35,311 bases of DNA from positions 1 through 35,311 of IMG/VR virus record IMGVR_UViG_3300040793_000007. The stretch is one strand, 5' to 3'. A program made the position numbers and the translations under genes. The notes under the pieces were generated by a model. That model did no database searches, had not been told where the DNA came from, and saw nothing but the letters and a program-made list of their open reading frames with translations. The stretch comes from a virus. Positions 1-35,311 of the stretch are shown here, one piece after another (within the stretch, counting starts at the first letter, position 1; the number at the start of each line of letters is the position of its first letter).

Positions 1-1337
1 ACGCCCTCGGGCGTTGTGGGCTGTACACTTTGCGCCGGGCTGCTTTGGAGGTCAATCTCGAAAAGCTCTTTTTGCTCTTCCGGTGTTAACGCGGCTATAA
101 CCGAGTCTGGTATGAAGTCGAAAGGCTTTAGCGTGCTTAGCGTAAAGTCCGCGCCCGCCGGTAAGCCTTCGAGCTTTAAAAACGGTTTAATTTGGTCGAA
201 GCCTTCCTTTATTAATTCCTGTCTTTTGAAGACTGAAAGCGCGAAAAGGCTAAGCGTATTTTTAAGCTCTTGCACGTTGCCCAGCTGGCCCTCCTTCGCA
301 ATGCTTACCAAAACGTCTGGCACACCCATAACACGGCAAACGCGTTTAGCTATACGCTCGCTGGCGCGGTCCGTTTGGTCTAATATCTCCGCAATATTTA
401 TAGTCGTTACCGTGGGCTTAAACTCCTCGGTATTTCCTTTAAGGTGCAAAATAGGGCTGGCGTCTTCGCCTGTGAAGTCCTGCAGCGCTTCATCAAAATA
501 ATCCTGGGACGTGTTGCCGTCTTCGTCTTCGTTTTGGTCGTCGATTGGACCGGTTGAAATTATAACCGGGGTCCTAAATCCCTGGGCTATATTTCGGAGG
601 TCCAGGCGGCTTATTTTACCGTCGCTTACCAGGTCTTCGATTGAAGCGTAATAGCGGGGCACTGGGTAAATATCGTAAAACCGCCCGAGGCCTTTTCGGT
701 AAACGTAAAGTATCTCGCCCAGCTGCTCGCCGTGCTTTCCTATTTGTTTTTTGATTGTCTGCAGGCGCTCCGCCGGCGGGCGTTCCGCGTCAAATTCTGG
801 ATAGAAAACCGTCTCGCTTTTGTCTTCACCTAGCTCGCCGTTTAGTGGGTTGAACTCAAAGCCGCCGTTAACCCTCCTAAGGTTGCTAACGTTTATATTA
901 TAAATTTTTCTTATTGAGCCGTCGTTATTAAATACCAGGCGGAGCGCGTACCCTTCAAGGTAAGCGACGTTTGTAACAATCTCGGCGGTAACGGCTAAAA
1001 GGCTTTGTTTGCTGTTTGCCTTAACGGCGTTTAGGCCTTCCAATATAAAGCCGTCCGCCTGTATAAACTGCTCCAGGCGCTCTATACATGCCGTCGCGGT
1101 TCCGCTATTGTCCACGGTCGCTATAATGGTATTTGGCAGGTTATCGAGCTCGCCGTAATAGTAGCGCTCATTTCCTTTGTTTCTGAGTATAACCGCAACG
1201 GCATTTTTTGCCGCGCTGGCTATCTTCTTTTTGAAGTCACCAACCGCCGCCAGTGCTCCGCGTGTTAACGTGGAGGCGTTCGCCTGTAGGTTAATAACCT
1301 TTTGCGCCTGGCGGACCTGCTTAGGGTTCTTAGCCAT
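1..1337 (-). CDS. Phage portal protein (3' end cut by window edge)
   Basis: The reading frame is open from an ATG at 1337 to the window edge (445 codons, no stop), so the C-terminus is missing. Portal proteins form the dodecameric ring at one capsid vertex through which DNA enters and to which the tail attaches. Portal-like signs are an N-terminal YYYGELDNLP region followed by a segment on passing multiple ligand-like positions, then near the end 'TTINIAEILDQTDRASERIAKR', 'MGVPDVLVS' and 'GQLGNVQELKNTLRLFA', which match the conserved helical stem/clip region where portals read 'iPp.Ll' and 'G..s.E'. The last residues visible (ALTPEEQKELFEIDL) resemble a portal C-terminus, so little is probably lost. 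It starts 3 nt after the stop of the small gene at 1340. Assignment is by recognised pattern, not by search. Confidence 0.8.
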   Translation of the reverse strand, partial: MAKNPKQVRQAQKVINLQANASTLTRGALAAVGDFKKKIASAAKNAVAVILRNKGNERYYYGELDNLPNTIIATVDNSGTATACIERLEQFIQADGFILEGLNAVKANSKQSLLAVTAEIVTNVAYLEGYALRLVFNNDGSIRKIYNINVSNLRRVNGGFEFNPLNGELGEDKSETVFYPEFDAERPPAERLQTIKKQIGKHGEQLGEILYVYRKGLGRFYDIYPVPRYYASIEDLVSDGKISRLDLRNIAQGFRTPVIISTGPIDDQNEDEDGNTSQDYFDEALQDFTGEDASPILHLKGNTEEFKPTVTTINIAEILDQTDRASERIAKRVCRVMGVPDVLVSIAKEGQLGNVQELKNTLSLFALSVFKRQELIKEGFDQIKPFLKLEGLPAGADFTLSTLKPFDFIPDSVIAALTPEEQKELFEIDLQSSPAQSVQPTTPEG

Positions 1338-2340: not shown

Positions 2341-3576
2341 TTACAAAGGCTTGTATAAAAAGACCTCTTGACCGTATTTATAGGTAATATCCGATTTCAT
2401 TCGGTTTTTCACTCTGTAAACGTCGTCGCCGGTTACGTCACCAAGGAATAAAACGCGCGCGTTAACTTCGTCAGAAAGCAAATCCACTCCTAGGAAAACG
2501 TTTCCTGGGTTCCATACCGCCGCGGTGTTGTCCGCCCAGTGTGGCATTGCTACTACATCAAAATCCAAGTACTTGAAAATTGAATCTTGTTCGAAGTAAC
2601 TAACCAGCGTAAAGTCTCCACCGTTGCCCTGGATTAGGCCGTTTGCAACGCGGTAAGCGTCTGCCATACGGTCAGATAAGAATATCTTAGTCCGCCCGTT
2701 TCCGGTCTTACTTACCTGCTTCTTTACCTTTTGCGGAACGCTCATGTAAATAGCAGTGATTACGCTCATTATGTTGGTCTGGTTAACATACCAGCCAAAG
2801 CCTTCCGTTGCCGCCGTCGCGCCTGTTACGGCCTCTTCGATTGTCAAAACGAGCGCGTTAATAGCAATAACCGTAACCGTCTGGCCTGCGATTGTTGCTC
2901 CGCCTATTGTCTGGTTTCCGTCCGTGCCTGTCAAGGTTACGCGGTCCCCTACTATAATATTGTCAGCGTTTGCGACCGTAACCGTTGCCGCGTTAGCAGC
3001 TCCAGACGCGATAGCAGTAACCGCCACTTTTGCCGTCGGAGGCAAAGCCGTTTTTCTTACTGTAGCGTCCGCGATAGCCAAAGGCAAAAGACCCACGTAA
3101 GGCGCCGTAAATGTAGCCGTAGCAACCCCGCCAGCGTTAACTCCCGCTTTACCTAAGATATATAGCTGCTCGTTTCCGATCGCCATTTTAGGTGCGTAAA
3201 CCTCCGACAAAAGGAAGTTGTAAAGCTCGGGCGTTAGCTTGTAATCTTCAAAGCTTCCTGGCTTTTGCTGCTCCGATTCCCAAGATAGCCGCAAGTCCAC
3301 CGCGTCGATCTCGTCCATTACTTCGTAAGCTTTCATCTCCAAAGCCTTCTCGCTTAGTGCAATGTTACCCGCCTGGGCTACGAACTTAGCGCTCGGCTCT
3401 TGAAATTCAATAGCGCGGTTAACACCTCTTAAAATTTCCTTGCTCTTAACCGTCTCGATGCCTGTAACCAGGCCCCGGTTTACAATGCCGGCTGGTGCTA
3501 ACATTGCCGGCGTCATTAGCTCCGCATAGAGCTTGCCGCCGTAAGTGTTCCCGTTAGGGTAAATAATTTCTGCCAT
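2341..3576 (-). CDS. Major capsid protein (HK97-type fold) with inserted beta domain
   Basis: A 411-residue protein, somewhat longer than many Bacteroidota siphophage capsid proteins. Residues 1-170 look like the N-arm, E-loop and P-domain helix (VDLRLSWESEQQKPGSFEDY; TPELYNFLLSEVYAPKMAIGNEQLY), and residues 265-411 like the A-domain (VITAIYMSVPQKVKKQ, TKIFLSDRMADAYRVANGL, LDFDVVAMPHW). Residues about 180-262 are a separate Ala/Thr/Val-rich beta segment with the motif IIVGDRVTLTGTDGNQTIGG and TVTVIAINALVLTI, resembling the FCCH-like small beta domains seen in other phage structural proteins. The gene lies directly downstream of the protease-scaffold gene, the usual partner of a capsid gene. 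The start ATG at 3576 follows an A-rich leader. The inserted domain probably projects from the capsomer; this is inference. Confidence 0.8.
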   Translation of the reverse strand: MAEIIYPNGNTYGGKLYAELMTPAMLAPAGIVNRGLVTGIETVKSKEILRGVNRAIEFQEPSAKFVAQAGNIALSEKALEMKAYEVMDEIDAVDLRLSWESEQQKPGSFEDYKLTPELYNFLLSEVYAPKMAIGNEQLYILGKAGVNAGGVATATFTAPYVGLLPLAIADATVRKTALPPTAKVAVTAIASGAANAATVTVANADNIIVGDRVTLTGTDGNQTIGGATIAGQTVTVIAINALVLTIEEAVTGATAATEGFGWYVNQTNIMSVITAIYMSVPQKVKKQVSKTGNGRTKIFLSDRMADAYRVANGLIQGNGGDFTLVSYFEQDSIFKYLDFDVVAMPHWADNTAAVWNPGNVFLGVDLLSDEVNARVLFLGDVTGDDVYRVKNRMKSDITYKYGQEVFLYKPL

Positions 3577-3606: not shown

Positions 3607-5229
3607 TTATTTTTTAGCCTCTGCTTTGTTCATGGCCTGCAACCTGAGTTTCTCGCCCGGGCTTAGTGCCTTGAACTCTTCCGGCGTTAAGCTTTTCGGG
3701 GTTAAGCTTTTCGGGGTTTTTGCCTTTTCGTCTGGGTCGCCCAGCACCTGGTTTTTAAGGTCCGCGAAGTCTTTAACCAAAGCGTTAAGCTTTTCGGTTG
3801 CGTCTCCTTTATCCTTTTTTAGGTTCGCGATTTGAGCGGAAAGACCAGCAACCGTGGAGGCGTGGCGCGCTTCAATCTCTTTTTTCTCTTCGTCAAAAGC
3901 AAGCTTTAAGGCCTCCATCTCTTCTGGAGCGGGTGCCGCTGCTGGTTCCGATGCTTCACTGATTACGCCGCTTTCGTCAACCGTAATAGTTTTGCCGTCT
4001 TCTAGCTCATAGCTGCCAGCCGGTGCCTTTTCTTCTGTTGGTAGTCCTTCGACCGCCAAAAATACCGGCTTACCTATAAGCTCGCCGCCCTCTTCGCCTC
4101 CAATAAACAAGGCCGTCCCGTCTTTTGCGAGTACTGCCATATTTTTAAGCGAAGTCTTAAAGAAGTTCTTAACCCCTGCGAGCGCTTTTTCAAAGGCGCT
4201 AACTTTGTCTTTGTGATCCATATTAAGTTTATTTAAAATTTGATTAACTAGATTTATAAAGCGCTCGTTTTGCCCTTTGATAACCGCTAAGGCTTTCAGC
4301 TCTTCGACTGTTTTATAAGCTGCTAATTCGTGCTCGGGCGTTTCACCCGGCGCGGCTATGTCTCCACTGGCATAAAAGTAAACCGTTAAACTTTCGTCCT
4401 CGTTAACCTCTTCGCCTAGGCGCTCCACGCCTTCAAGCTTAGCGCCTGTTTCCTCTTCGAACTCCCTAAGGGCGCCCGCCTCGGTTGTTTCACCCTGCAT
4501 AACCTTGCCGCCCGGAAAGCCCCACGCGCCTGGCTCGAAGTCGTCCTGGGCGGACCGCTTAAGCATTAACACGCTGCCGGCTTCATTAATATAAATAACG
4601 TCCGCGTAAATCTTAACGGGGCCGTCCTGTAAATTTAACGCACCTATTTGATTCTGGCTATAGGTTAGCACCCTGTTTTTAAAGTAAGCCGTTGCTGGCT
4701 CCGCTTCGACTATCTCGGTTGCAAAGCCTAACGCCAGTGCCATGTTAGCACCTACGTTCGTCTCGACTGCCATAAGGGCCAGGATTTTAGCGGCGTTTTC
4801 GTGGCCTGCTACGCCCGCGTAAATATCCAAAATTTGCATATCGGTCTGGGCAAAAGATTCCGTTAAAGCTTTCAGGGTGTGAAAGTTTAACTTTTCGCCC
4901 GCTAAGGTGTCCGCGTCTATCCAGGCGTTATGAATAATCATCTCGGAGCCCCTAAAAACTTTTCGGGTTTTACCGGCTAAAAACATAACGCTGGCTATGC
5001 TGTTAGCTACAATTGCCTCGGTGTGCACTTCGTGCTTTTTAAGCTCTTCGAAGATTTTAAAACCCTCTTCGACTGAGCCGCCAGGGCTTTTAAAAATAGC
5101 CCGAAAAGGTCCACCGCCGTAAGAATCCAAAAAGTTTTGGAGGTCCGCAAAGCTAAAAACCTTCTCGCCCTTGGTTACGGTCGTGTCGTTTTTGCTGCCT
5201 ATTACACCTTCAATGTTTAGTATCTTCAT
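3607..5229 (-). CDS. Head maturation protease (ClpP/S14-like) fused to Nudix domain and scaffold-like C-terminus
   Basis: 540 residues with three parts. Residues 1-200 are a ClpP/SppA-like serine protease: a 'SPGGSVEEG' turn (48-56), likely catalytic Ser77 in VANSIASVMFLAG and His100 in MIIHNAW; such enzymes trim the scaffold and capsid protein in the prohead. Residues about 205-335 form a Nudix domain with a complete box at 241-263: the pattern G-x5-E-x7-R-E-U-x-E-E-x-G-U is matched residue for residue (R255, E256, E259, E260). Nudix enzymes hydrolyse nucleoside diphosphates linked to another group; the substrate here is unknown. Residues 337-540 are charged, with a coiled-coil stretch (about 430-500) and a tail carrying a duplicated KSLTP unit, as in scaffolding proteins. 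The gene is immediately upstream of the capsid gene. Protease and Nudix calls are firm; the scaffold call is inferred from position and composition. Confidence 0.85.
   Translation of the reverse strand: MKILNIEGVIGSKNDTTVTKGEKVFSFADLQNFLDSYGGGPFRAIFKSPGGSVEEGFKIFEELKKHEVHTEAIVANSIASVMFLAGKTRKVFRGSEMIIHNAWIDADTLAGEKLNFHTLKALTESFAQTDMQILDIYAGVAGHENAAKILALMAVETNVGANMALALGFATEIVEAEPATAYFKNRVLTYSQNQIGALNLQDGPVKIYADVIYINEAGSVLMLKRSAQDDFEPGAWGFPGGKVMQGETTEAGALREFEEETGAKLEGVERLGEEVNEDESLTVYFYASGDIAAPGETPEHELAAYKTVEELKALAVIKGQNERFINLVNQILNKLNMDHKDKVSAFEKALAGVKNFFKTSLKNMAVLAKDGTALFIGGEEGGELIGKPVFLAVEGLPTEEKAPAGSYELEDGKTITVDESGVISEASEPAAAPAPEEMEALKLAFDEEKKEIEARHASTVAGLSAQIANLKKDKGDATEKLNALVKDFADLKNQVLGDPDEKAKTPKSLTPKSLTPEEFKALSPGEKLRLQAMNKAEAKK
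3686..3715 (-). repeat. In-frame tandem 15-bp repeat in scaffold tail
   Basis: Two exact copies of GTTAAGCTTTTCGGG (3686-3700 and 3701-3715) duplicate the five residues KSLTP near the C-terminus of the protease-scaffold protein. This looks like recent slippage or unequal exchange in a flexible tail. Confidence 0.9.
4219..4240 (-). promoter_or_regulatory. Candidate internal translation start for free scaffold
   Basis: Met337 of the protease-Nudix protein (ATG at 4221) comes right after the Nudix domain and is preceded by an A/T-only-like stretch (AAATTTTAAATAAACTTAAT) that resembles the leaders in front of other start codons in this phage. Initiation here would give a 204-residue protein made only of the scaffold part, as in lambda C/Nu3. 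Confidence 0.4.
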
Positions 5230-5450: not shown

Positions 5451-7835
5451 TTAGCTTAAATCGCTTATAGCCTTCACCTGGTTAACCTCCGCGTTTACGC
5501 GGTTAATATCCGTAACCCTTACGACTAAGTTTAGCGCGCTTACTGCCTGCTCAAAACCCTGCTGGGTTTCCTGTAAGGCGCGGCGGTCAATACCTGGCAC
5601 ACCGGCCCGGCTTATGGCTCCGCCGTCCGCTAAGTAATTAGACGAGCCACGGGTCCAACTACGCCCGCCGTAAAGCTGGTTATAATTACTTAGCGCCTTA
5701 ATTGACTGAAAGGCGTTTTTCTTCATAACGAAAAGGCCCTCGCCTCCCTCCACGTTTGCCACGGTCCGCCCTCCTATCGCTACGTCCGAGCCGCCGCCCG
5801 CGTGCGACGGTCCGCCAATCTCTATGCCTCCGCCCTCTTCGAACTTTGGCGCGGGCTTGCTGTTTATCTTCGCTACGTTGGCCAGACCAGTTGCCACGGT
5901 TGCCGCGGCTGCTATGGCTCCGAACGGCGGCGGCAAAGTTCCCAGGGCTAAGTTCGCCCCGCGGTACGTGTCCAGAAGTGCCTGAAAGCTGGCGGCTATC
6001 TTGCCGGCGGCGCTTTGTTCTCCAAAGATATTTTTAGCGGCATTTAGAACGGCGTCCTGGGCCGCAACCTCCGCCGCGGCGGTATCTATTGCCAGTTGTT
6101 TCTTTTCCTCCGCTAACTTAGCCGCCGCGCTTAGTTGGGCTTGTTGCGCCGCAACTCCACGGCTAACCGTTTCATCCTGCAGCGCTCTAAGTTGCGCCTG
6201 TAAATCTGTCTCTATAGCTACGCGCGTCTCGGCGTCTATAGCCGCGTTTTCCTGAGTAGCTACGAGCTGGCCCTGTAAAGCCGCCGCGCGCGTCTCGATA
6301 GCCAAAGCCTCCACCTGGTCCAATTGTTCCTGGTAGGTGTCTAAGTCTATGAGGCCGTCCGCAAATTGCTGCTTAACGCTGTTTATTGAACCCCTTATAG
6401 CTAAGTCAGTCTCGGCGGCGCGTGTCTTTATAGCCTCCGAGTAGTTAGCGTTTAATTCCTTCTGGAGCTCCGCGGCTTTCTTAAGTGCCTCGGCGTCCGC
6501 GGCGTCTTGATCCTTAGTAACCTGGGCCGCCGCGGCTTTGTTTTTGTCCGCCGCTTCTTTGTTTAAAGCGTTCCTTTTGTTTTGGAGTTCTATTTGTTTA
6601 GTTGCGCTTTCTTGCTGCAGGTTTGCCAGCTCTATTTCTGCATCAATAACCCGGTTAACGTCCGCGTCCGTGCTGCTGCTTAGGTCGTTTTGCTGCTTTA
6701 AAATACTAATTCTTTGCTTCTGCAGGTCAATGCTTTTTTGCTCCAGGCCTTGCTCCAGTGCCTCCGCCTTCGCTATAGCCGCCGCGCGCTCCGAGGTGCT
6801 CTTCGTTACGTCTTCGCCTAACTTCTTAAGGTCTTCCAACTGCTGGCGGCTTTGCGCCCTTTCAAGGCTTAGCGCCTTCTCGGCTCTTACAAGGTTTTGC
6901 AGTTCGCCTTCAAGGCGTGCGGCTTCTTTACCGGCCTGGACCGCGGCGGCCCCTACCTCTAAAATGTTAATACCGTCAATATTACCGGCGGCCTCTGCCA
7001 CGCCGTCAATGCCGCGCTTTACTCGGTCAAAGTCTAAAGTAATTATGCCGGCTATAATGTCGCCCAAACCCTCAAAGGCCGGTATTACGTTATCAAAAAT
7101 TTGCTTTCCTAGGCCTATTAACGCGTCAGCCAGAACACTTACGAACGTGCTAACGGCGGAGGTTGCCCGAGCTAGTTTGTCCATGCCTTCCTGGCTTTGG
7201 GTTAAGTAAGCAACCAGCGAGCCTAGCACCACCACGAAAGCACCAACGCCCGACGTAATAAGTATTTTATTAAAAGACGAAGTAGCCGCGCCCGCCGCGC
7301 CGGTTGTTGCTGTTACAACTTTGTTAACTGCTGCCAGGGCTTGCTGGGCTTTTGCAAATAGTCCGGTTTGGTCCACGGCCTCAACTATAGAGCCGGTATA
7401 ATTACCCACGTTTCGCCCGGTTACTCCTATTTGACCTTCCAACCGCTTAAGCTCCTCGGTCTGGGCTAATAAAGCTTTTTGAAGCGCCACGCCTGTTTTT
7501 TCGTTGTTGCGTTCCTCGGCGCTTAGGTTAACATATTCCTGCTTTAAGCGTGAAACGTTCGCCCTCATGTCTGCTATCGAACCCGTATTACTTTTTTGTA
7601 TTTTGTCGGAGGCCTGCAAAATACGCTGGTTTTCGCGTACGGTATTATTTAAGCCTTTTATAGCCGTTTCGTTTCTAACATACTCTACTGAGTTCTTTTT
7701 ACCCTGGTCCGCTAAGGCTTTGTTTGCTTCCTTTAGGCCGTCAATCTCGTTGCGTAAATCTACAATAGCTTTCTCGCTGCTGGCTATTTGATTTTCATCA
7801 ATTCCGACTTTTAATAAAATGCTTTCCTCTGCCAT
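5451..7835 (-). CDS. Tail tape measure protein
   Basis: 794 residues, the second longest product in the window. Tape measure proteins fill the tail tube, set its length and help DNA pass into the cell. The sequence shows the expected layout: an N-terminal coiled coil (about 20-140, e.g. KAIVDLRNEIDGLKEANKAL), a hydrophobic glycine/alanine segment (about 185-215, ILITSGVGAFVVVLGSLVAYL) plus further hydrophobic stretches to about 290, a long Ala/Glu/Gln/Lys coiled coil (300-590), a hydrophobic stretch near 640-665 (PPPFGAIAAAATVATGLANVAKI) and a Gly-rich C-terminal region (FEEGGGIEIGGPSHAGGG; VEGGEGLFVMKK) typical of tape measure C-termini. Its start lies 3 nt after the stop of a 46-residue gene. 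Unusually, it is transcribed before the capsid genes and after the putative tail-tip genes. Confidence 0.88.
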   Translation of the reverse strand: MAEESILLKVGIDENQIASSEKAIVDLRNEIDGLKEANKALADQGKKNSVEYVRNETAIKGLNNTVRENQRILQASDKIQKSNTGSIADMRANVSRLKQEYVNLSAEERNNEKTGVALQKALLAQTEELKRLEGQIGVTGRNVGNYTGSIVEAVDQTGLFAKAQQALAAVNKVVTATTGAAGAATSSFNKILITSGVGAFVVVLGSLVAYLTQSQEGMDKLARATSAVSTFVSVLADALIGLGKQIFDNVIPAFEGLGDIIAGIITLDFDRVKRGIDGVAEAAGNIDGINILEVGAAAVQAGKEAARLEGELQNLVRAEKALSLERAQSRQQLEDLKKLGEDVTKSTSERAAAIAKAEALEQGLEQKSIDLQKQRISILKQQNDLSSSTDADVNRVIDAEIELANLQQESATKQIELQNKRNALNKEAADKNKAAAAQVTKDQDAADAEALKKAAELQKELNANYSEAIKTRAAETDLAIRGSINSVKQQFADGLIDLDTYQEQLDQVEALAIETRAAALQGQLVATQENAAIDAETRVAIETDLQAQLRALQDETVSRGVAAQQAQLSAAAKLAEEKKQLAIDTAAAEVAAQDAVLNAAKNIFGEQSAAGKIAASFQALLDTYRGANLALGTLPPPFGAIAAAATVATGLANVAKINSKPAPKFEEGGGIEIGGPSHAGGGSDVAIGGRTVANVEGGEGLFVMKKNAFQSIKALSNYNQLYGGRSWTRGSSNYLADGGAISRAGVPGIDRRALQETQQGFEQAVSALNLVVRVTDINRVNAEVNQVKAISDLS

Positions 7836-16905: not shown

Positions 16906-18324
16906 TTAGGTGTATTTTTTAACTAAGTCTTTTATAAATCCTATTTGGCTTTTGTCCGCTTTTACGGCGTGCATTAGTTCGCCCTCGGTTGCGTCCTTAT
17001 CTGCCAGGCTCCGCGCTACGCGCTCGTCGATAGTGCCCTGGGCTATTATCCTATAAATAAATACCTGCTTAGCCTTCTGGCCCTGCCTGTAGAGCCGCGC
17101 TATTAATTGTTTGTAAAGCTCCGAGCTCCAGTTCAAACCAAACCAGGCTATATAGTTAGAGCCGTGCTGGATGTTAAGCCCGTGCCCTCCGCTGGCTGGG
17201 TGTAAAACAAGCATAGGCACGCGCCCCGCGTTCCAGTCGTCTATGTCCTGCTGCCCACTGAGAACCCGCGCGCCGGCCTTCCCGAACCGCTTTAGAATCC
17301 GGGCGGTGTCGTGCTTAAAAGATACTGCCACCAGCAGCGGCTTGCCGTTGGTCGCCTCTACCACGTCTTCGAGCTTATCTAACTTTAGATCGTGGATTCT
17401 ATGCACGTTCCGCTCGGCGTCGTAAACCGCGCCGTTAGCATACTGCAGCAACTTATTAGAAAGCGCGGCGGCGTTCGCTACGCTTATTTCCTGGCCGGCT
17501 CCCAGCTCATTGATAAGGTCCAAAACTAATTCCTTTTCGAAGATGTCGTAGCCGTCGCGGACCGCCGCCGGGAATATTACCGGCTCGTCTATTATCAGTT
17601 TGTCCGGCATGTCTAAGAAGTCCTCGGCCTTCATGCTTATGCAAATGTCGCCTATCTCCTTATAAATCCTTTTTTGTTGCCGGTCGTCTCTCAGTGCATA
17701 GCTGTAAACTATTGAGCCGTTACGGGCGTCGGGTTTAAAGTACTCGTTTCTATACCTACCAATCGAAGCGCCTAATCGCTCGCCGCCGTCAATAAGATAA
17801 ACCTGGGCCCAAAGATCAATTAACCCATTAGGCGCCGCCGTACCGGTCAAACCTACCACGCGAGGCACCGACTTACGAACCCGCTTAAGAGCTTTAAACC
17901 TTTGGCTTTGGTGGTTCTTAAAGCTGCTTAGCTCATCCAGTAGCAGCATGTCAAAAGGCAACATTGAGCCGCCGAACTGCTCCACGAGCCAGGGCACGTT
18001 GTCCCGACTTACTAAGAAAATCTCGGCGTTAGCTTCCAAAGCTTTAAGGCGCTTAGCCGGCGTACCTGCTACCAGGCTAAACTTAAGCGAGCGCGTGTGC
18101 TCCCACTTAAGCGCCTCCTGGGTCCAGACGCTTTCTACAACCCGCTTAGGGCCTACAACCAGCACGCGCTCCACTTCCATAAGATCAAGTAACTCGCGTA
18201 TAGCTGTCAGGCTTATAATTGTTTTACCCAGCCCCATGTCCAGGAAGAGCCCGGCGCCGTCGTGCTTTAGTATATGCTTAACACCAAAGGTCTGGTAGTC
18301 GTGGAGGTTTGAAGCGTTTAACAT
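16906..18324 (-). CDS. SNF2-family DEAD/H-box helicase (translocase)
   Basis: 472 residues from ATG 18324, which overlaps the VRR-NUC stop as TGATG; a TTG one codon upstream is unlikely. Phage SNF2-like proteins are DNA translocases thought to act in recombination-dependent replication. Motifs in order: Q-like start YQTFGVKHIL (10-19), Walker A DMGLGKT (29-35), Ia VVGPKRVVESVW (56-67), II LLDELSSF (128-135), III GLTGTAAPNG (158-167), V HPASGGHGLNIQ (375-386) and VI QLIARLYRQGQ (406-416). The size is that of a minimal phage version. The VRR-NUC gene directly upstream is its frequent neighbour in phages. Confidence 0.9.
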   Translation of the reverse strand: MLNASNLHDYQTFGVKHILKHDGAGLFLDMGLGKTIISLTAIRELLDLMEVERVLVVGPKRVVESVWTQEALKWEHTRSLKFSLVAGTPAKRLKALEANAEIFLVSRDNVPWLVEQFGGSMLPFDMLLLDELSSFKNHQSQRFKALKRVRKSVPRVVGLTGTAAPNGLIDLWAQVYLIDGGERLGASIGRYRNEYFKPDARNGSIVYSYALRDDRQQKRIYKEIGDICISMKAEDFLDMPDKLIIDEPVIFPAAVRDGYDIFEKELVLDLINELGAGQEISVANAAALSNKLLQYANGAVYDAERNVHRIHDLKLDKLEDVVEATNGKPLLVAVSFKHDTARILKRFGKAGARVLSGQQDIDDWNAGRVPMLVLHPASGGHGLNIQHGSNYIAWFGLNWSSELYKQLIARLYRQGQKAKQVFIYRIIAQGTIDERVARSLADKDATEGELMHAVKADKSQIGFIKDLVKKYT

Positions 18325-18632
18325 CAATCTAAATTCTTAAGGGCCGGGCGGTAAAGGTCCGCCAGGACTTTTAACAGGCTGTCAACCATACCGGCGGAGT
18401 TCGCCACGTACACGCGGACGCCTAACGCTTCGAGCTTCTTAGCTACGTGGAGCTGGCGGGGCCTAAGCTTCAAGCCTTCGCCCTTAGTCTCCACGAAGAA
18501 CACCAGACCGCCCGGCATAATGCAAAGCCTGTCAGGTATGCCAGCGAAGTAAACCGCGGGAAACTTAAGGCAAAGCCCGCCTAACTTCTCGACGCCTAAG
18601 CGGAGCTTTTTTTCTATTTGTTTTTCAGTCAT
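18324..18632 (-). CDS. VRR-NUC domain nuclease
   Basis: 102 residues, entirely the VRR-NUC fold (PD-(D/E)xK superfamily). Seen: the conserved GIPDRL (31-36, Asp34), strand then VETKGEG (47-53, Glu48 and Lys50) and RPRQ (57-60, Gln60), followed by the ALGVRVYVANS strand. These small stand-alone phage nucleases pair with SNF2 helicases and probably resolve branched DNA. Start ATG 18632; the methylase stop overlaps it by 4 nt (ATGA). The stop is joined to the helicase start as TGATG, so the pair is translationally coupled. Confidence 0.9.
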   Translation of the reverse strand: MTEKQIEKKLRLGVEKLGGLCLKFPAVYFAGIPDRLCIMPGGLVFFVETKGEGLKLRPRQLHVAKKLEALGVRVYVANSAGMVDSLLKVLADLYRPALKNLD

Positions 18633-19912
18633 AAGGATATGTTTTTAAATATGTGGGCTACTGCGTCAACGGTCCAGCCGTTGCCCAGCATCCTATAGCG
18701 CTGGGTATTGCTCACCGAGGCGGTGTAGTTGTCTGGTACTGTCTGCAGGCGTTCGCATTCTATAGGGGTAAGCTTTCTTAAGTGTTCTTTATCTACACTA
18801 TCCCACTCGTGGCGGTCGTACGAACCGCGCCCACTGGAGCGGACGCATTTAGATTTTTTACGAACATCTAAAACTTGCGTTCTTTGCCCGTGGTTATCTA
18901 CTCCTTTGAAGTAGTTAGCATCAATACAAAGACTTTTATTTCCAGTTTCTCTAATTAGACCCCTGTTTTTTATAACGCCTTCGCCGCTTGTTTCCAAAAC
19001 GTCTTTTAATAAAAGGCCTCTATCTTCTGGCTGGGTTACGTTTGGTATATTAGTCCAATATAGGCGGCGGCGGTTCTGAGCGCTAACCAGCGCGCTGTTA
19101 ATCTCTATAGGCTCCACGCCTAAAAGCCCTGTGATAACGTCCTGAAATTCTTTTTTCATTTTCACATTTTCAAGCAAAAAATATTTTGGCTTTACTTCTT
19201 TTAGAATCCTTACAAACTCGAAAAATAGTTTGCTTCGCGGGTCTTCAAAATTAAGCTGCTTACCAGCAAAACTAAAGCCCTGGCAAGGCGAGCCGCCTAT
19301 CAGTAAATCTATCTCACCTACGTCTAAGCCCGTGACTTTTGTAACGTCTCCCAGCTGCACCGTCTTAGGGTAATTGCTTTGCGTGACTGCTATAGCGTGT
19401 TTGTCAACCTCGCTGGCGTAGTATTCCACCACATCAAAGCCCGCGCGGTTTAGTGCTATTTGTCCGCAGCTCATACCGTCGAAAAGACTAAGCACTTTTA
19501 TTTTATCCATGTCTATATTTTTAAATATGTGAGCTACTACGTCAACCGTCCAACCATTGCCCAGCATTCTATAGCGCTGGGCGTTGCTTACCGCGGCGCT
19601 GTAGTTGTCTGGTACTGTCTGCAGGCGTTCGCACTCTATAGGTGTAAGCTTTCGTACCCTACCATCAGCCAGAAGTACTTTTGCCTTTCCCGAGGCTCCA
19701 GTGTCTAAGCACCCGTGTTTTCCGTTCAAATAAAAGGCTCTTTGGTCTTGGCTCCCGTGGCCCCTACCATTAACATCATACTGCAGATAATTAGGTAATT
19801 TTTTAGTGTTTAGAATTTTTGAGTCAGGCACGAACTCAAAAGGGGTGCCCTCGGGCTGCAGTATATCCCCCAGCATAACGCCTTTATCGGGTACGTTAAT
19901 TTTTTTTAGCAT
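18629..19912 (-). CDS. DNA (cytosine-5) methyltransferase with an extra N-terminal copy of its C-terminal module
   Basis: 427 residues. A complete C5 methylase begins at Met135: motif I VLSLFDGMSCGQ (140-151), catalytic IV GGSPCQGFSF (206-215, Cys210), VI FLLENVK (245-251), VIII QNRRRLYW (279-286), IX RKLTPIECERLQTVPDNY (379-396), X YRMLGNGWTVDAVA (406-419). It methylates cytosine C5 in a short target site, probably to protect phage DNA. Residues 1-134 are extra: they contain a second target-recognition-like piece and a nearly identical copy of motifs IX-X (87-133). ATG 19912 follows promoter/operator B. Met135 (19510) could serve as an internal start after AAATATAGAC. Stop overlaps the VRR-NUC start. 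Confidence 0.9.
   Translation of the reverse strand: MLKKINVPDKGVMLGDILQPEGTPFEFVPDSKILNTKKLPNYLQYDVNGRGHGSQDQRAFYLNGKHGCLDTGASGKAKVLLADGRVRKLTPIECERLQTVPDNYSAAVSNAQRYRMLGNGWTVDVVAHIFKNIDMDKIKVLSLFDGMSCGQIALNRAGFDVVEYYASEVDKHAIAVTQSNYPKTVQLGDVTKVTGLDVGEIDLLIGGSPCQGFSFAGKQLNFEDPRSKLFFEFVRILKEVKPKYFLLENVKMKKEFQDVITGLLGVEPIEINSALVSAQNRRRLYWTNIPNVTQPEDRGLLLKDVLETSGEGVIKNRGLIRETGNKSLCIDANYFKGVDNHGQRTQVLDVRKKSKCVRSSGRGSYDRHEWDSVDKEHLRKLTPIECERLQTVPDNYTASVSNTQRYRMLGNGWTVDAVAHIFKNISL
18640..18781 (-). repeat. Duplicated methylase motif IX-X segment, C-terminal copy
   Basis: This segment encodes residues 379-425 of the methylase and matches 19513-19656 closely at the nucleotide level (most positions, about 85-90 percent by eye, differences mainly at third positions). 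Confidence 0.9.
19513..19656 (-). repeat. Duplicated methylase motif IX-X segment, N-terminal copy
   Basis: This segment encodes residues 87-133. It carries the same RKLTPIECERLQTVPDNY and YRMLGNGWTVD motifs as the C-terminal copy, about 880 bp away in direct orientation, and ends just before the internal methionine that begins the full catalytic domain. Confidence 0.9.
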
Positions 19913-32078: not shown

Positions 32079-34775
32079 TTATTTTGCTACCCATCCTGTA
32101 TTTCCTGTACCTGATTCCTTTACATAAAGAGTAGTACCTGCGCCACCAGATAAGTTGATATATTGAACTCCTATTTTAGCAGTAACTACACTTTCTGGAG
32201 TGCCTGTTCCTTTTAATATTCTTGGATCTCCTATACTTCCAGCCACTACCCACCTGGAGGGCACGATACCCGTTGAGAAATATAACCCGCTAGCATTTTC
32301 ATACTCGTTGCCTATCTCTAGTAAATTGTTAATTGTTTTACCTGAACTTAAAAATAAACCTCTTATGGCTGTGCCAACCATTTTAGAACTAATCATTTTA
32401 AAACTGTTAATGTTTTGTTCACAAAAACAAACAAATGCGCTAGCCGAAGAATTTTCAAAAGATGTTGAAACTATTTCAATATTCTGAACCTCAGAACGCA
32501 AATACAGATAGTGAGAAATGCCCCCAGTAAAGGTACAGTTATAAACGCCCACTTTATTAATTAGTGCCAAACCAGTAGTTAAGTATATAATGTGTGGGGC
32601 GTTTGATTCGCAGTTTTTTAAAATAACAGAAAGGCCGTCTTGGTAATTTCTAACAAAAGTTGATACGGATGAGTTGGTAGGCGGGGTGTCGTAATGGGAT
32701 TTGCAGTTATTTAAAGTTAAAACCGGTAACGTGTTGCCTGTTGTTATGGAGGCTATTCTCCCGCTGTTTTTAGCGTACAAATTTTCTAGCTTCCAACTAC
32801 TAATTATAGAAGATATACAAGTAAGTAAAGAACCATTTGTTGTAGAAATAAAATCTTGAAAAACGTTAGTAACAATTAAATTATTAATAGTAGATAGATT
32901 AATTATTATTAACTCAAATACATTTTTTGATACTAATCCGTCAATTTTTAACAGGTCTATTTCAAAAGAAGAAGTCGTTCTAATACCTATAGCGCAGTTT
33001 TTAACAAAGCAATTAATTATTTCGTTATTTCTACCCTCAATAGTAAATCCAATAGAAGTGTAAGGGGTGTTATTTCTCTCTATCCCCCCTATAGCTTGGC
33101 AATTTTCAAATCTAGCTCTTCCACAGCTGGCGTGAGTATTAAAAATTCCGCTACTAACACCGTCATCTTCCCCATCGCTGCCACTAAAATCTTTAACAGT
33201 GCAACCCCAACTAACTCCGCCAAAAGAGGGCGAACCCCCAAACATTACAGCGTGCCTGTTTCCTTGGCTAACACCACTAAAAGTCGAAAACATTGTAGAG
33301 TTACCAATTAAGATGCCGTAACCAATACCAGTTCTATTAGCTCCGTAATTATTAACTTTTACATTAACATTATAGCAATCGTAAACAGACAAGGCAACAT
33401 TAATAGCGTTATTAACTTCAACCTCAATATTTAATCCATCAGCAAAACGAACAAATAAACCGTTTGAGGAAGTATTTCCGCCTTGTGTTATTTTTAAATC
33501 TATCTTTTTGTTTTTCGGAGGTGTTATTTTTGCAATCCTAACTGAATCTGATACAAGGTAAGAATCCTCTAAATACCCATAAATACTAATAACTCCCGTG
33601 CTAGTGTTTACAGATTTTACTCTTTGGATTTCTCCTTGTGAAACACCCTCGCCACTTAAAGGCGCAAATTCTTTATTTGAAATAATCTTTACTAAATCAC
33701 CTTTTGCAAGATTCAAAGAGACGGAATCGGCTGGGGAAACTGTTAAGCTACTTTGTCCATTAACTCTGTCAACCAGTAGATTATAATAAGTGCTTAATGA
33801 GCCTTCAATTTTTATAACATAGTCTGCCGTATTACTTATAAATTCTGCGTTGCCTTCTACATCAACATTGGACAAATCTATAACTGAGGAAACAAAGTAT
33901 TTTCCTTTGATGCCTATTTTTTTTCCAGCTAACTTACTCGCATTTATCGAGGCTATTAAATTTGTGGTGTCATCTATAACGCCATCGTTTTCAACTCCGA
34001 ACCAGATAGGATCTAGTATTTCATAATCCCTCTTCCATAACCCGCCATCAGCAGCATTAAAATAAACTCCACCATCGGCAACAAATCCAGATCCAGACGG
34101 AATATAAGTAAAAGTACTACCACCTTGACCACCTCCATTAACATAAGCCCTAGTTCGGTTAATTCTGTTTTGGGTTGATAAATCAGTAACAACATCAAGT
34201 GAAAGTATAGAGGTGTCATTAGCAGCTATACCGCCGTCTTGGTCTTTCTGTAAGGCTAAACGTTGGTCGAATATGCTTGACGCCTCTGCGCTCCCTATGC
34301 CTACCAGGTTAAGCGGCTTAGTTGAATAGCACACTTGAATATAGTCGTCCGCCTGCAGGTCATAAAGAACTGTCAAGGTACTTCCGTCCAGCGTCCAGGC
34401 CAGTCCGTCCGAAGCTATAGTTTGCCCGTTAAGTGTAACGCCTATCACATCCAGAGGAGACTCGTTTAACTCAAATACCTGGGAACCTGAATAGTCAAAA
34501 GGTTCTGTCCTTATACGTCCGGAGTTGTTTGCTATAAGGCTATCCAACGGGACCAGGTACGCTTCGCCTTCCCGGATAATAAGCGCGGTATCTCCGCTAA
34601 CTACTGCGCTATCACCCTGCACCCCGGCGAGTAGATTGCCTCGGCTTTGAGCGCTGAAAAGCTCTTCTATAAGGGCTTGAATCATTGGGCGATGCTCGCC
34701 CGCTGCCGTTATTGGCTGCCCGCTGGCGAGTAGCGCGTTCTTAAGTGCTTCTAGTTGTGCTTTGGTAAAAGCCAT
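32079..34775 (-). CDS. Tailspike/tail fibre with pectate-lyase-like beta-helix
   Basis: 898 residues. Residues 1-about 170 are a particle-binding N-terminus with normal base composition (MAFTKAQLEALKNALLASG; VIGVTLNGQTIASDGLAWTLDGSTLTV). From about 180 the gene becomes AT-rich. Residues about 255-300 show WFGVENDGVIDDTTNLIASINASKLAGKKIGIKGKYFV, the start of the pectate lyase-like tailspike fold. Long repeating short strands with N/G-rich turns (300-830) form a right-handed beta helix, and the C-terminal end (about 855-898, GTGTPESVVTAKIGVQYINLSGG; TTLYVKESGTGNTGWVAK) is a common tailspike C-terminal motif. It likely binds or cleaves a host surface polysaccharide. Confidence 0.85.
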   Translation of the reverse strand: MAFTKAQLEALKNALLASGQPITAAGEHRPMIQALIEELFSAQSRGNLLAGVQGDSAVVSGDTALIIREGEAYLVPLDSLIANNSGRIRTEPFDYSGSQVFELNESPLDVIGVTLNGQTIASDGLAWTLDGSTLTVLYDLQADDYIQVCYSTKPLNLVGIGSAEASSIFDQRLALQKDQDGGIAANDTSILSLDVVTDLSTQNRINRTRAYVNGGGQGGSTFTYIPSGSGFVADGGVYFNAADGGLWKRDYEILDPIWFGVENDGVIDDTTNLIASINASKLAGKKIGIKGKYFVSSVIDLSNVDVEGNAEFISNTADYVIKIEGSLSTYYNLLVDRVNGQSSLTVSPADSVSLNLAKGDLVKIISNKEFAPLSGEGVSQGEIQRVKSVNTSTGVISIYGYLEDSYLVSDSVRIAKITPPKNKKIDLKITQGGNTSSNGLFVRFADGLNIEVEVNNAINVALSVYDCYNVNVKVNNYGANRTGIGYGILIGNSTMFSTFSGVSQGNRHAVMFGGSPSFGGVSWGCTVKDFSGSDGEDDGVSSGIFNTHASCGRARFENCQAIGGIERNNTPYTSIGFTIEGRNNEIINCFVKNCAIGIRTTSSFEIDLLKIDGLVSKNVFELIIINLSTINNLIVTNVFQDFISTTNGSLLTCISSIISSWKLENLYAKNSGRIASITTGNTLPVLTLNNCKSHYDTPPTNSSVSTFVRNYQDGLSVILKNCESNAPHIIYLTTGLALINKVGVYNCTFTGGISHYLYLRSEVQNIEIVSTSFENSSASAFVCFCEQNINSFKMISSKMVGTAIRGLFLSSGKTINNLLEIGNEYENASGLYFSTGIVPSRWVVAGSIGDPRILKGTGTPESVVTAKIGVQYINLSGGAGTTLYVKESGTGNTGWVAK

Positions 34776-34780
34776 ATTCT

Positions 34781-35311
34781 TTAGTTAATCAAGTTGAAAG
34801 GGTTGCAAGCAAGCCCGATAAATCCGAACCCTTTATTTCTGGATCGCTTTGGCGCCCGTATGCTTTGAGACTGATTGGCGCCTTTGCCCGTTTTCGTGTA
34901 GCTCACGCCGTCGAATGTAAACGGCACGGCGGTAAGCTTCGCCAGGGCTACGTTCGCGTCACTGTTAGCCTGTCTAATTATTATAGCTCGTTCCTGGGCG
35001 CTGCTTTGTTCAAAAGTTCCTTGCGGGTCCGCTGTCTTGCTTAACCCAAACTGGGTAACATTTAATCCGTGGGCGCTTATAAACCGGACGTAGGCAATCA
35101 AAACCAGGTAGCGCTTAACCGGCCCATTAAGAAAGGCGGTTATCTCAGGCTTTGCGGCGTCCGGTGTTTCGGCTATAAGCTCCAAGGCTTCGTAAAGCTC
35201 CACACCTAAGCGCGGCGCGAGGTCGTATTCCTGGGCCGCGTAGATGTACGGGTTTATTTGGTCCTCCAGGATATTCTGGGAGAACTTAACAAGGTTTGCC
35301 GCTGCAAAATC
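34781..35311 (-). CDS. Head-tail adaptor (DUF6712-like), 5' end cut by window edge
   Basis: The frame is open to the right edge (176 residues in the window); no start is reached, and a GTG at 35203 is not the true start because homologous-looking residues continue upstream (DFAAANLVKFSQNILEDQINPYIYAAQEYDLAPRLG.ELYEAL). This N-terminal pattern (PYI..AQE.DL.P.LG..LY) is typical of DUF6712 adaptor/connector proteins of Bacteroidota phages. The later part (YVRFISAHGLNVTQFG; ANSDANVALAKLTAV) is consistent. It presumably follows the portal gene on the intact genome. Confidence 0.7.
   Translation of the reverse strand, partial: DFAAANLVKFSQNILEDQINPYIYAAQEYDLAPRLGVELYEALELIAETPDAAKPEITAFLNGPVKRYLVLIAYVRFISAHGLNVTQFGLSKTADPQGTFEQSSAQERAIIIRQANSDANVALAKLTAVPFTFDGVSYTKTGKGANQSQSIRAPKRSRNKGFGFIGLACNPFNLIN

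Follow-up and report, generated by a model that had tools for sequence, protein, structure and literature searches.

Gene content of the window and layout of the protease gene

The window, that is, the whole stretch of viral DNA that was analyzed, is a 35.3 kb record (35,311 nucleotides) encoding a terminase, a tape measure protein, a DNA polymerase and a VapE-type helicase. The terminase was closest to those of Flavobacterium phages (54%), which makes a member of the Bacteroidota the likely host of the window phage. A holin and a GH19 endolysin were also identified, and the replication half contains genes for a C5 cytosine DNA methyltransferase and an SNF2-type helicase (18629-19912 and 16906-18327, respectively). 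An 898-aa tail protein (32079-34775) weakly matched the K1-lyase "Rider" domain and EPS depolymerase families, and is a putative enzyme that possibly degrades capsule or EPS. The region around the protease gene has the following features:

3..1337, minus strand: probable portal protein, an open-ended ORF running off the left window end (assigned by position and by eye)
2341..3576, minus strand: probable major capsid protein, 411 aa (assigned by position and size; matches phrog_11320, of unknown function)
3607..5229, minus strand: fusion gene for a ClpP-like head maturation protease, Nudix domain and scaffold-like tail, 540 aa, ATG start
3610..4221, minus strand: scaffold-like tail, aa 337-540 (AF2; conserved in Nudix-less relatives)
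4219..4221, minus strand: internal ATG (Met337), probable nested scaffold start (start-context score)
4225..4629, minus strand: Nudix cassette, aa 201-335 (PF00293, alignments, clean indel, AF2)
4441..4509, minus strand: Nudix box, aa 241-263, GKVMQGETTEAGALREFEEETGA (sequence; glutamates kept in all carriers)
4660..5229, minus strand: ClpP/S14-like protease domain, aa 1-190 (phrog_94 and PF00574; NF045542 below its cut-off)
5451..7835, minus strand: tape measure protein, the upstream neighbor (phrog_3336, 8.9e-9)

The probable major capsid protein gene is immediately downstream of the fusion gene, and a homologue comes after the protease in the relative L018. A tblastn search with its product gave no match among 50,697 records of deposited phages, and only uncultured relatives were found. 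The probable portal gene is cut by the left end of the window and a DUF6712-like gene (34781-35203) is situated close to the right one; the record is either incomplete or circularly permuted.

Analyses of the N-terminal part of the fusion protein supported its assignment as a head maturation protease. Residues 1-181 matched phrog_94 (4.4e-22), and Pfam CLP_protease (PF00574) scored 35.4 bits against a cut-off of 20.2 (1.3e-8). NCBIfam NF045542 gave 5.3e-19, yet its 68.8 bits fell under the cut-off of 120 for that family. Ser77 and His100, the two residues named for the ClpP/S14-like protease in the preliminary description, were both invariant across 11 aligned sequences, as was Glu156, a possible catalytic acid. 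The only PDB matches of the protease by phmmer were to designed repeat proteins, among them pentatricopeptide repeats, and were set aside. The AF2 model of the full-length protein had a mean pLDDT of 54, with a protease model too poor for use; in the tail it placed, at low confidence, a small beta region at 365-427 followed by a long helix at 436-496. The plus strand at 3607-5229 contains stop codons throughout.

The reading of this single ORF as a ClpP-like protease, a Nudix domain and a scaffold-like tail was borne out both by the profile matches and by the same fusion in IMG/VR contigs, which were 100% (L001), 87% (L002), 52% (L003) and 55% (L017) identical to it. L001 is probably the same phage as that of the window. 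The presence of the fusion in these relatives indicated that it is not an assembly artefact; an assembly join or a chance motif was ruled out by the independent contigs together with the E-value of the Nudix profile match (below).

The Nudix domain and the internal start codon beside it

The Nudix cassette starts at LQDG, and its last part is the helix preceding Met337. Comparison with Nudix profiles, as proposed in the preliminary description, gave PF00293 on aa 209-315 with 62.1 bits, well above the curated cut-off of 21.1 (E 7e-17). AF2 of the Nudix segment (window 4210-4641) produced a Nudix alpha/beta/alpha fold with a pLDDT of 85.9, and this model matched Nudix structures in the PDB at Z scores of 15-16.6. 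The box, G241-x5-E247-x7-R255-E256-F-E-E259-E260-T-G262-A263, is complete. It had been said to match GX5EX7REUXEEXGU exactly, which is slightly too strong because Phe and Ala occupy the two U (bulky aliphatic) positions. The relative L002 departs from the consensus too, the box Gly being missing and the glutamates kept. Loss of the catalytic glutamates in all relatives, an outcome that the preliminary description had named as refuting it, was not what we found, as they are present in all four distinct carriers.

Comparison of the window with L002 gave a dN/dS of 0.087 for the Nudix part (44.7 synonymous and 21.3 nonsynonymous differences), a value that falls between those of the protease (0.059) and the scaffold (0.168). 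The low value for the Nudix part indicates strong purifying selection on it, and the predicted enzyme is apparently intact.

The class of substrate was approached through structure. MutT, MutT2, DR1025, RppH, Ap4A/Ap6A hydrolases and the ADP-ribose-binding NrtR were nearly tied, within about one Z unit, and assignment of a substrate from structure was dropped because many Nudix subfamilies tie. For the same reason, a counter-defense reading based on ADP-ribose and a nucleotide house-cleaning reading were not separable. The best matches among solved structures were MutT/MTH1-like but mixed; those closest by sequence were MTH1/MutT-type 8-oxo-dGTPases, with weak scores (bits 35-38).

The Nudix insert stops directly ahead of Met337, an invariant residue. 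The ATG of this residue is preceded in the window by A or T at 19 of 20 bases, and its start-context score ranked second among the 77 internal ATGs of the window, using a matrix built from 26 window gene starts, a small set that includes the start of the fusion gene itself. Met337 was also the top-ranked internal ATG in nine of the 11 homologues scored, several of which are near-copies, with Nudix carriers and non-carriers behaving alike. Based on the insert being located just upstream of a start-like ATG, a Nudix-free scaffold is probably made as well, from Met337, and the Nudix domain would then be present only on the protease-bearing copies. The evidence for this predicted nested scaffold is suggestive. 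Phage lambda C and Nu3 are nested protease-scaffold genes, in which C is an S49-type protease and no Nudix domain is present. The window gene resembles them in having protease and scaffold in one frame, with its internal scaffold start being predicted.

Relatives with and without the Nudix segment

Nine distinct relatives (L005-L009, L018, L023, L049 and L050) retain the protease and scaffold and have no Nudix domain. The partial contig L024 is near-identical to L009, and the remote relatives L057 and L058 (36%) likewise have protease and scaffold without Nudix. Most of the relatives' contigs are fragments, and in the non-carrier records tested, which are incomplete contigs, no other Nudix gene was detected. 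Two loci (L019 and L020) represented relatives in bacterial genomes, and these have Nudix genes without a head protease.

The carrier L003 was compared with the non-carriers L006 and L007, which are collinear with it at 90-97% DNA identity. At the insertion point L003 has 421 nt versus 19 nt in L006 and L007, a net in-frame insert of 402 nt. In a gene tree built without the insert the carriers did not form a clade and three state changes were needed; a single carrier clade with simple inheritance was rejected on this tree (AU p 1.6e-5). L017 adjoins the L003 group in the gene tree. The inserted Nudix domains themselves formed one group (94/95), in which L003 was beside L017, indicating that one Nudix stock entered the linker. 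By these sequence comparisons, that stock would later have been lost repeatedly or have moved between phages. L006, L007, L008 and L018 have similar short linkers, which are also like the one in L049, and no insert is present in the outgroup; this favors, without proving, that L003 acquired the segment by transfer over the same loss having happened several times. Together, these data indicate that the Nudix segment is an optional, exchangeable cassette.

Another variable region was observed in the gap between the tape measure and protease genes (L003:5385-5627), which is common to L003 and L007 and different in L006 and L018. This suggests that recombination has occurred upstream of the protease gene as well.

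Nudix domains in phage head proteins and possible roles of the cassette

The preliminary description held up in its anatomy and in its inference of head targeting. Its statement that no described case was known is contradicted by Iyer, Burroughs and Aravind (2022, PMC9503650), whose section 3.5.2 lists phage Nudix domains fused to MuF, to portal and to a capsid-processing serine peptidase, and also by fusions in several named phages (below). The passages concerned propose that head-fused Nudix enzymes are packaged and injected, so that the likeness to the window protein extends to both the partner and the proposed fate. They name the clade of head-fused Nudix domains T4 NudE-like, whereas the best structural matches of the window Nudix are spread over several subfamilies. 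Set against the same passages, the window is distinguished by a ClpP-type protease, a Nudix domain in the protease-scaffold linker and a presence/absence polymorphism. Our literature search for a described ClpP-Nudix fusion gave nothing beyond the general statement in this part of PMC9503650. Among the matches listed for deposited phages (40 of 106 protease records, at limited sensitivity), none had a ClpP-type protease and a Nudix domain in one ORF.

Domain searches confirmed comparable proteins in several deposited phages. The same order was seen in Streptomyces phage Gilgamesh gp52, in which a protease is followed by a Nudix domain and a long tail, with the gene for the major capsid protein coming next; its protease is of the S78 type, a fold unrelated to ClpP, and its Nudix domain branches with those of Sonali and Pam4, apart from that of the window. 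Klebsiella phage Chronis gp4, Pantoea phage PdC23 gp04 and a Shewanella phage QDWS_44 protein, all from the head module, combine in one ORF a Nudix domain and a DUF2213 region resembling a head protease (Chronis and QDWS_44 by domain scan, PdC23 gp04 by its similarity as a close relative of Chronis gp4). These differ from the window protein in having the Nudix domain at the N-terminus and a protease of another family. No protease is present in Burkholderia phage Bcep781 gp17, a Nudix-portal fusion, or in Arthrobacter phage Sonali gp3, which is arranged portal-Nudix-MuF, and a domain search identified MuF and Nudix in one protein in Pam4_13.

A separate Nudix gene lies within the head module of phages Bm1 and MA9V-3. 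In Chryseobacterium phage MA9V-3 (region L044:4001-7858) this gene encodes 235 aa, is followed immediately by those for the head maturation protease and the major head protein, and is among the nearest Nudix relatives outside the window clade (38% identity); this arrangement is possibly the state before fusion. The best-scoring relative outside the clade among the deposited phages searched (37-38%) was in ORF123 of Flavobacterium phage MaF61 (L043:3035-5806). In this 924-aa protein the Nudix domain is ringed by several (L/F)xE|S/G motifs that, by eye, resemble T4-type prohead protease sites, and the MaF61 neighbors had no head-protein match. The window Nudix grouped weakly with those of MaF61 and MA9V-3 (support 45/77). 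A single clade of all head-fused Nudix domains was weakly rejected (AU p 0.009, from a short alignment with long branches), which fits repeated capture of Nudix domains. Fusions of a Nudix domain to a head protein are known in outline; what this locus brings is a ClpP-type protease, a precise position beside a probable nested start and unusually clean plus/minus pairs.

We give an even chance to the following reading, in which the Nudix domain is a head-targeted hydrolase and an optional accessory that rides the protease-scaffold protein into the prohead and is perhaps delivered with the DNA. The C-terminal scaffold tail would place the maturation protease inside the prohead, and the Nudix domain, inserted with an intact box in the protease-scaffold linker of the window lineage, would be carried there on the protease-bearing form, presumably at low copy. 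The bulk scaffold, started at Met337, would be free of Nudix, and head assembly would not need the accessory enzyme. The protease perhaps frees the Nudix domain in the head, from which it may enter the next host with the DNA and hydrolyze a small molecule linked to a nucleoside diphosphate, e.g., a defense signal or a toxic nucleotide. Head targeting is supported by protease, Nudix and scaffold sharing one ORF that adjoins head genes, and by the recurrence of Nudix domains in head proteins of unrelated phages (Gilgamesh, Chronis/PdC23/QDWS, Pam4, Sonali and Bcep781). T4 Alt is an example of a head-packaged, injected enzyme. Polyvalent proteins have at least two effector domains in an injected polypeptide (PMC5512222); the window protein does not fit this definition, as it has a single accessory enzymatic domain next to its protease and scaffold. 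A more specific reading, which we consider unlikely, makes the linker just ahead of the nested scaffold start a docking site for exchanged enzymatic cargo, with the protease delivering a Nudix domain and then freeing it inside the capsid, to be co-ejected with the DNA and destroy a nucleotide defense signal early in infection.

The Nudix domain might instead act in the producing cell, as a MutT-type house-cleaning enzyme that removes damaged or non-canonical nucleotides during replication, in which case an abundant late protein would serve as its partner purely for the sake of expression. The closeness to MTH1/MutT-type sequences, the NCBIfam MutT families listed (under their cut-offs) and the unfused Nudix genes in the head modules of Bm1 and MA9V-3 are consistent with such a role. 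However, the MTH1 similarity is weak, an enzyme of replication would be oddly placed on a protein made late and targeted to the head, and in the records examined Nudix domains were repeatedly fused to various head proteins and not to replication proteins; we therefore regard house-cleaning as improbable. Placement directly between protease and scaffold could also couple the Nudix domain to both, as a nucleotide-sensing regulator whose hydrolysis or binding gates maturation or assembly, and NrtR provides a precedent for Nudix domains serving as sensors (in the part of PMC9503650 that treats it). Such a regulator would have to be optional, given the close relatives without it, and the full catalytic box has been retained, which makes this reading very unlikely. 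The patchy presence and the tolerated absence of the segment would also suit an inert passenger, a neutral insert decaying in a flexible linker or serving as a spacer. We give this almost no weight, as a decayed passenger is rejected by the low dN/dS of the Nudix part and by catalytic glutamates conserved across ~43-49% amino-acid divergence.

As far as we found, the packaging and injection of head-fused Nudix enzymes is still a prediction. To it, this locus adds an optional 402-nt cassette that directly precedes a conserved internal ATG. Since the cassette is present in some phages and missing from others that are nearly identical to them, a natural plus/minus pair is available and the role of the Nudix domain is directly testable. 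If the head-targeted reading is correct, phages would have, in the protease-scaffold linker, a general route for loading an enzyme into a capsid.
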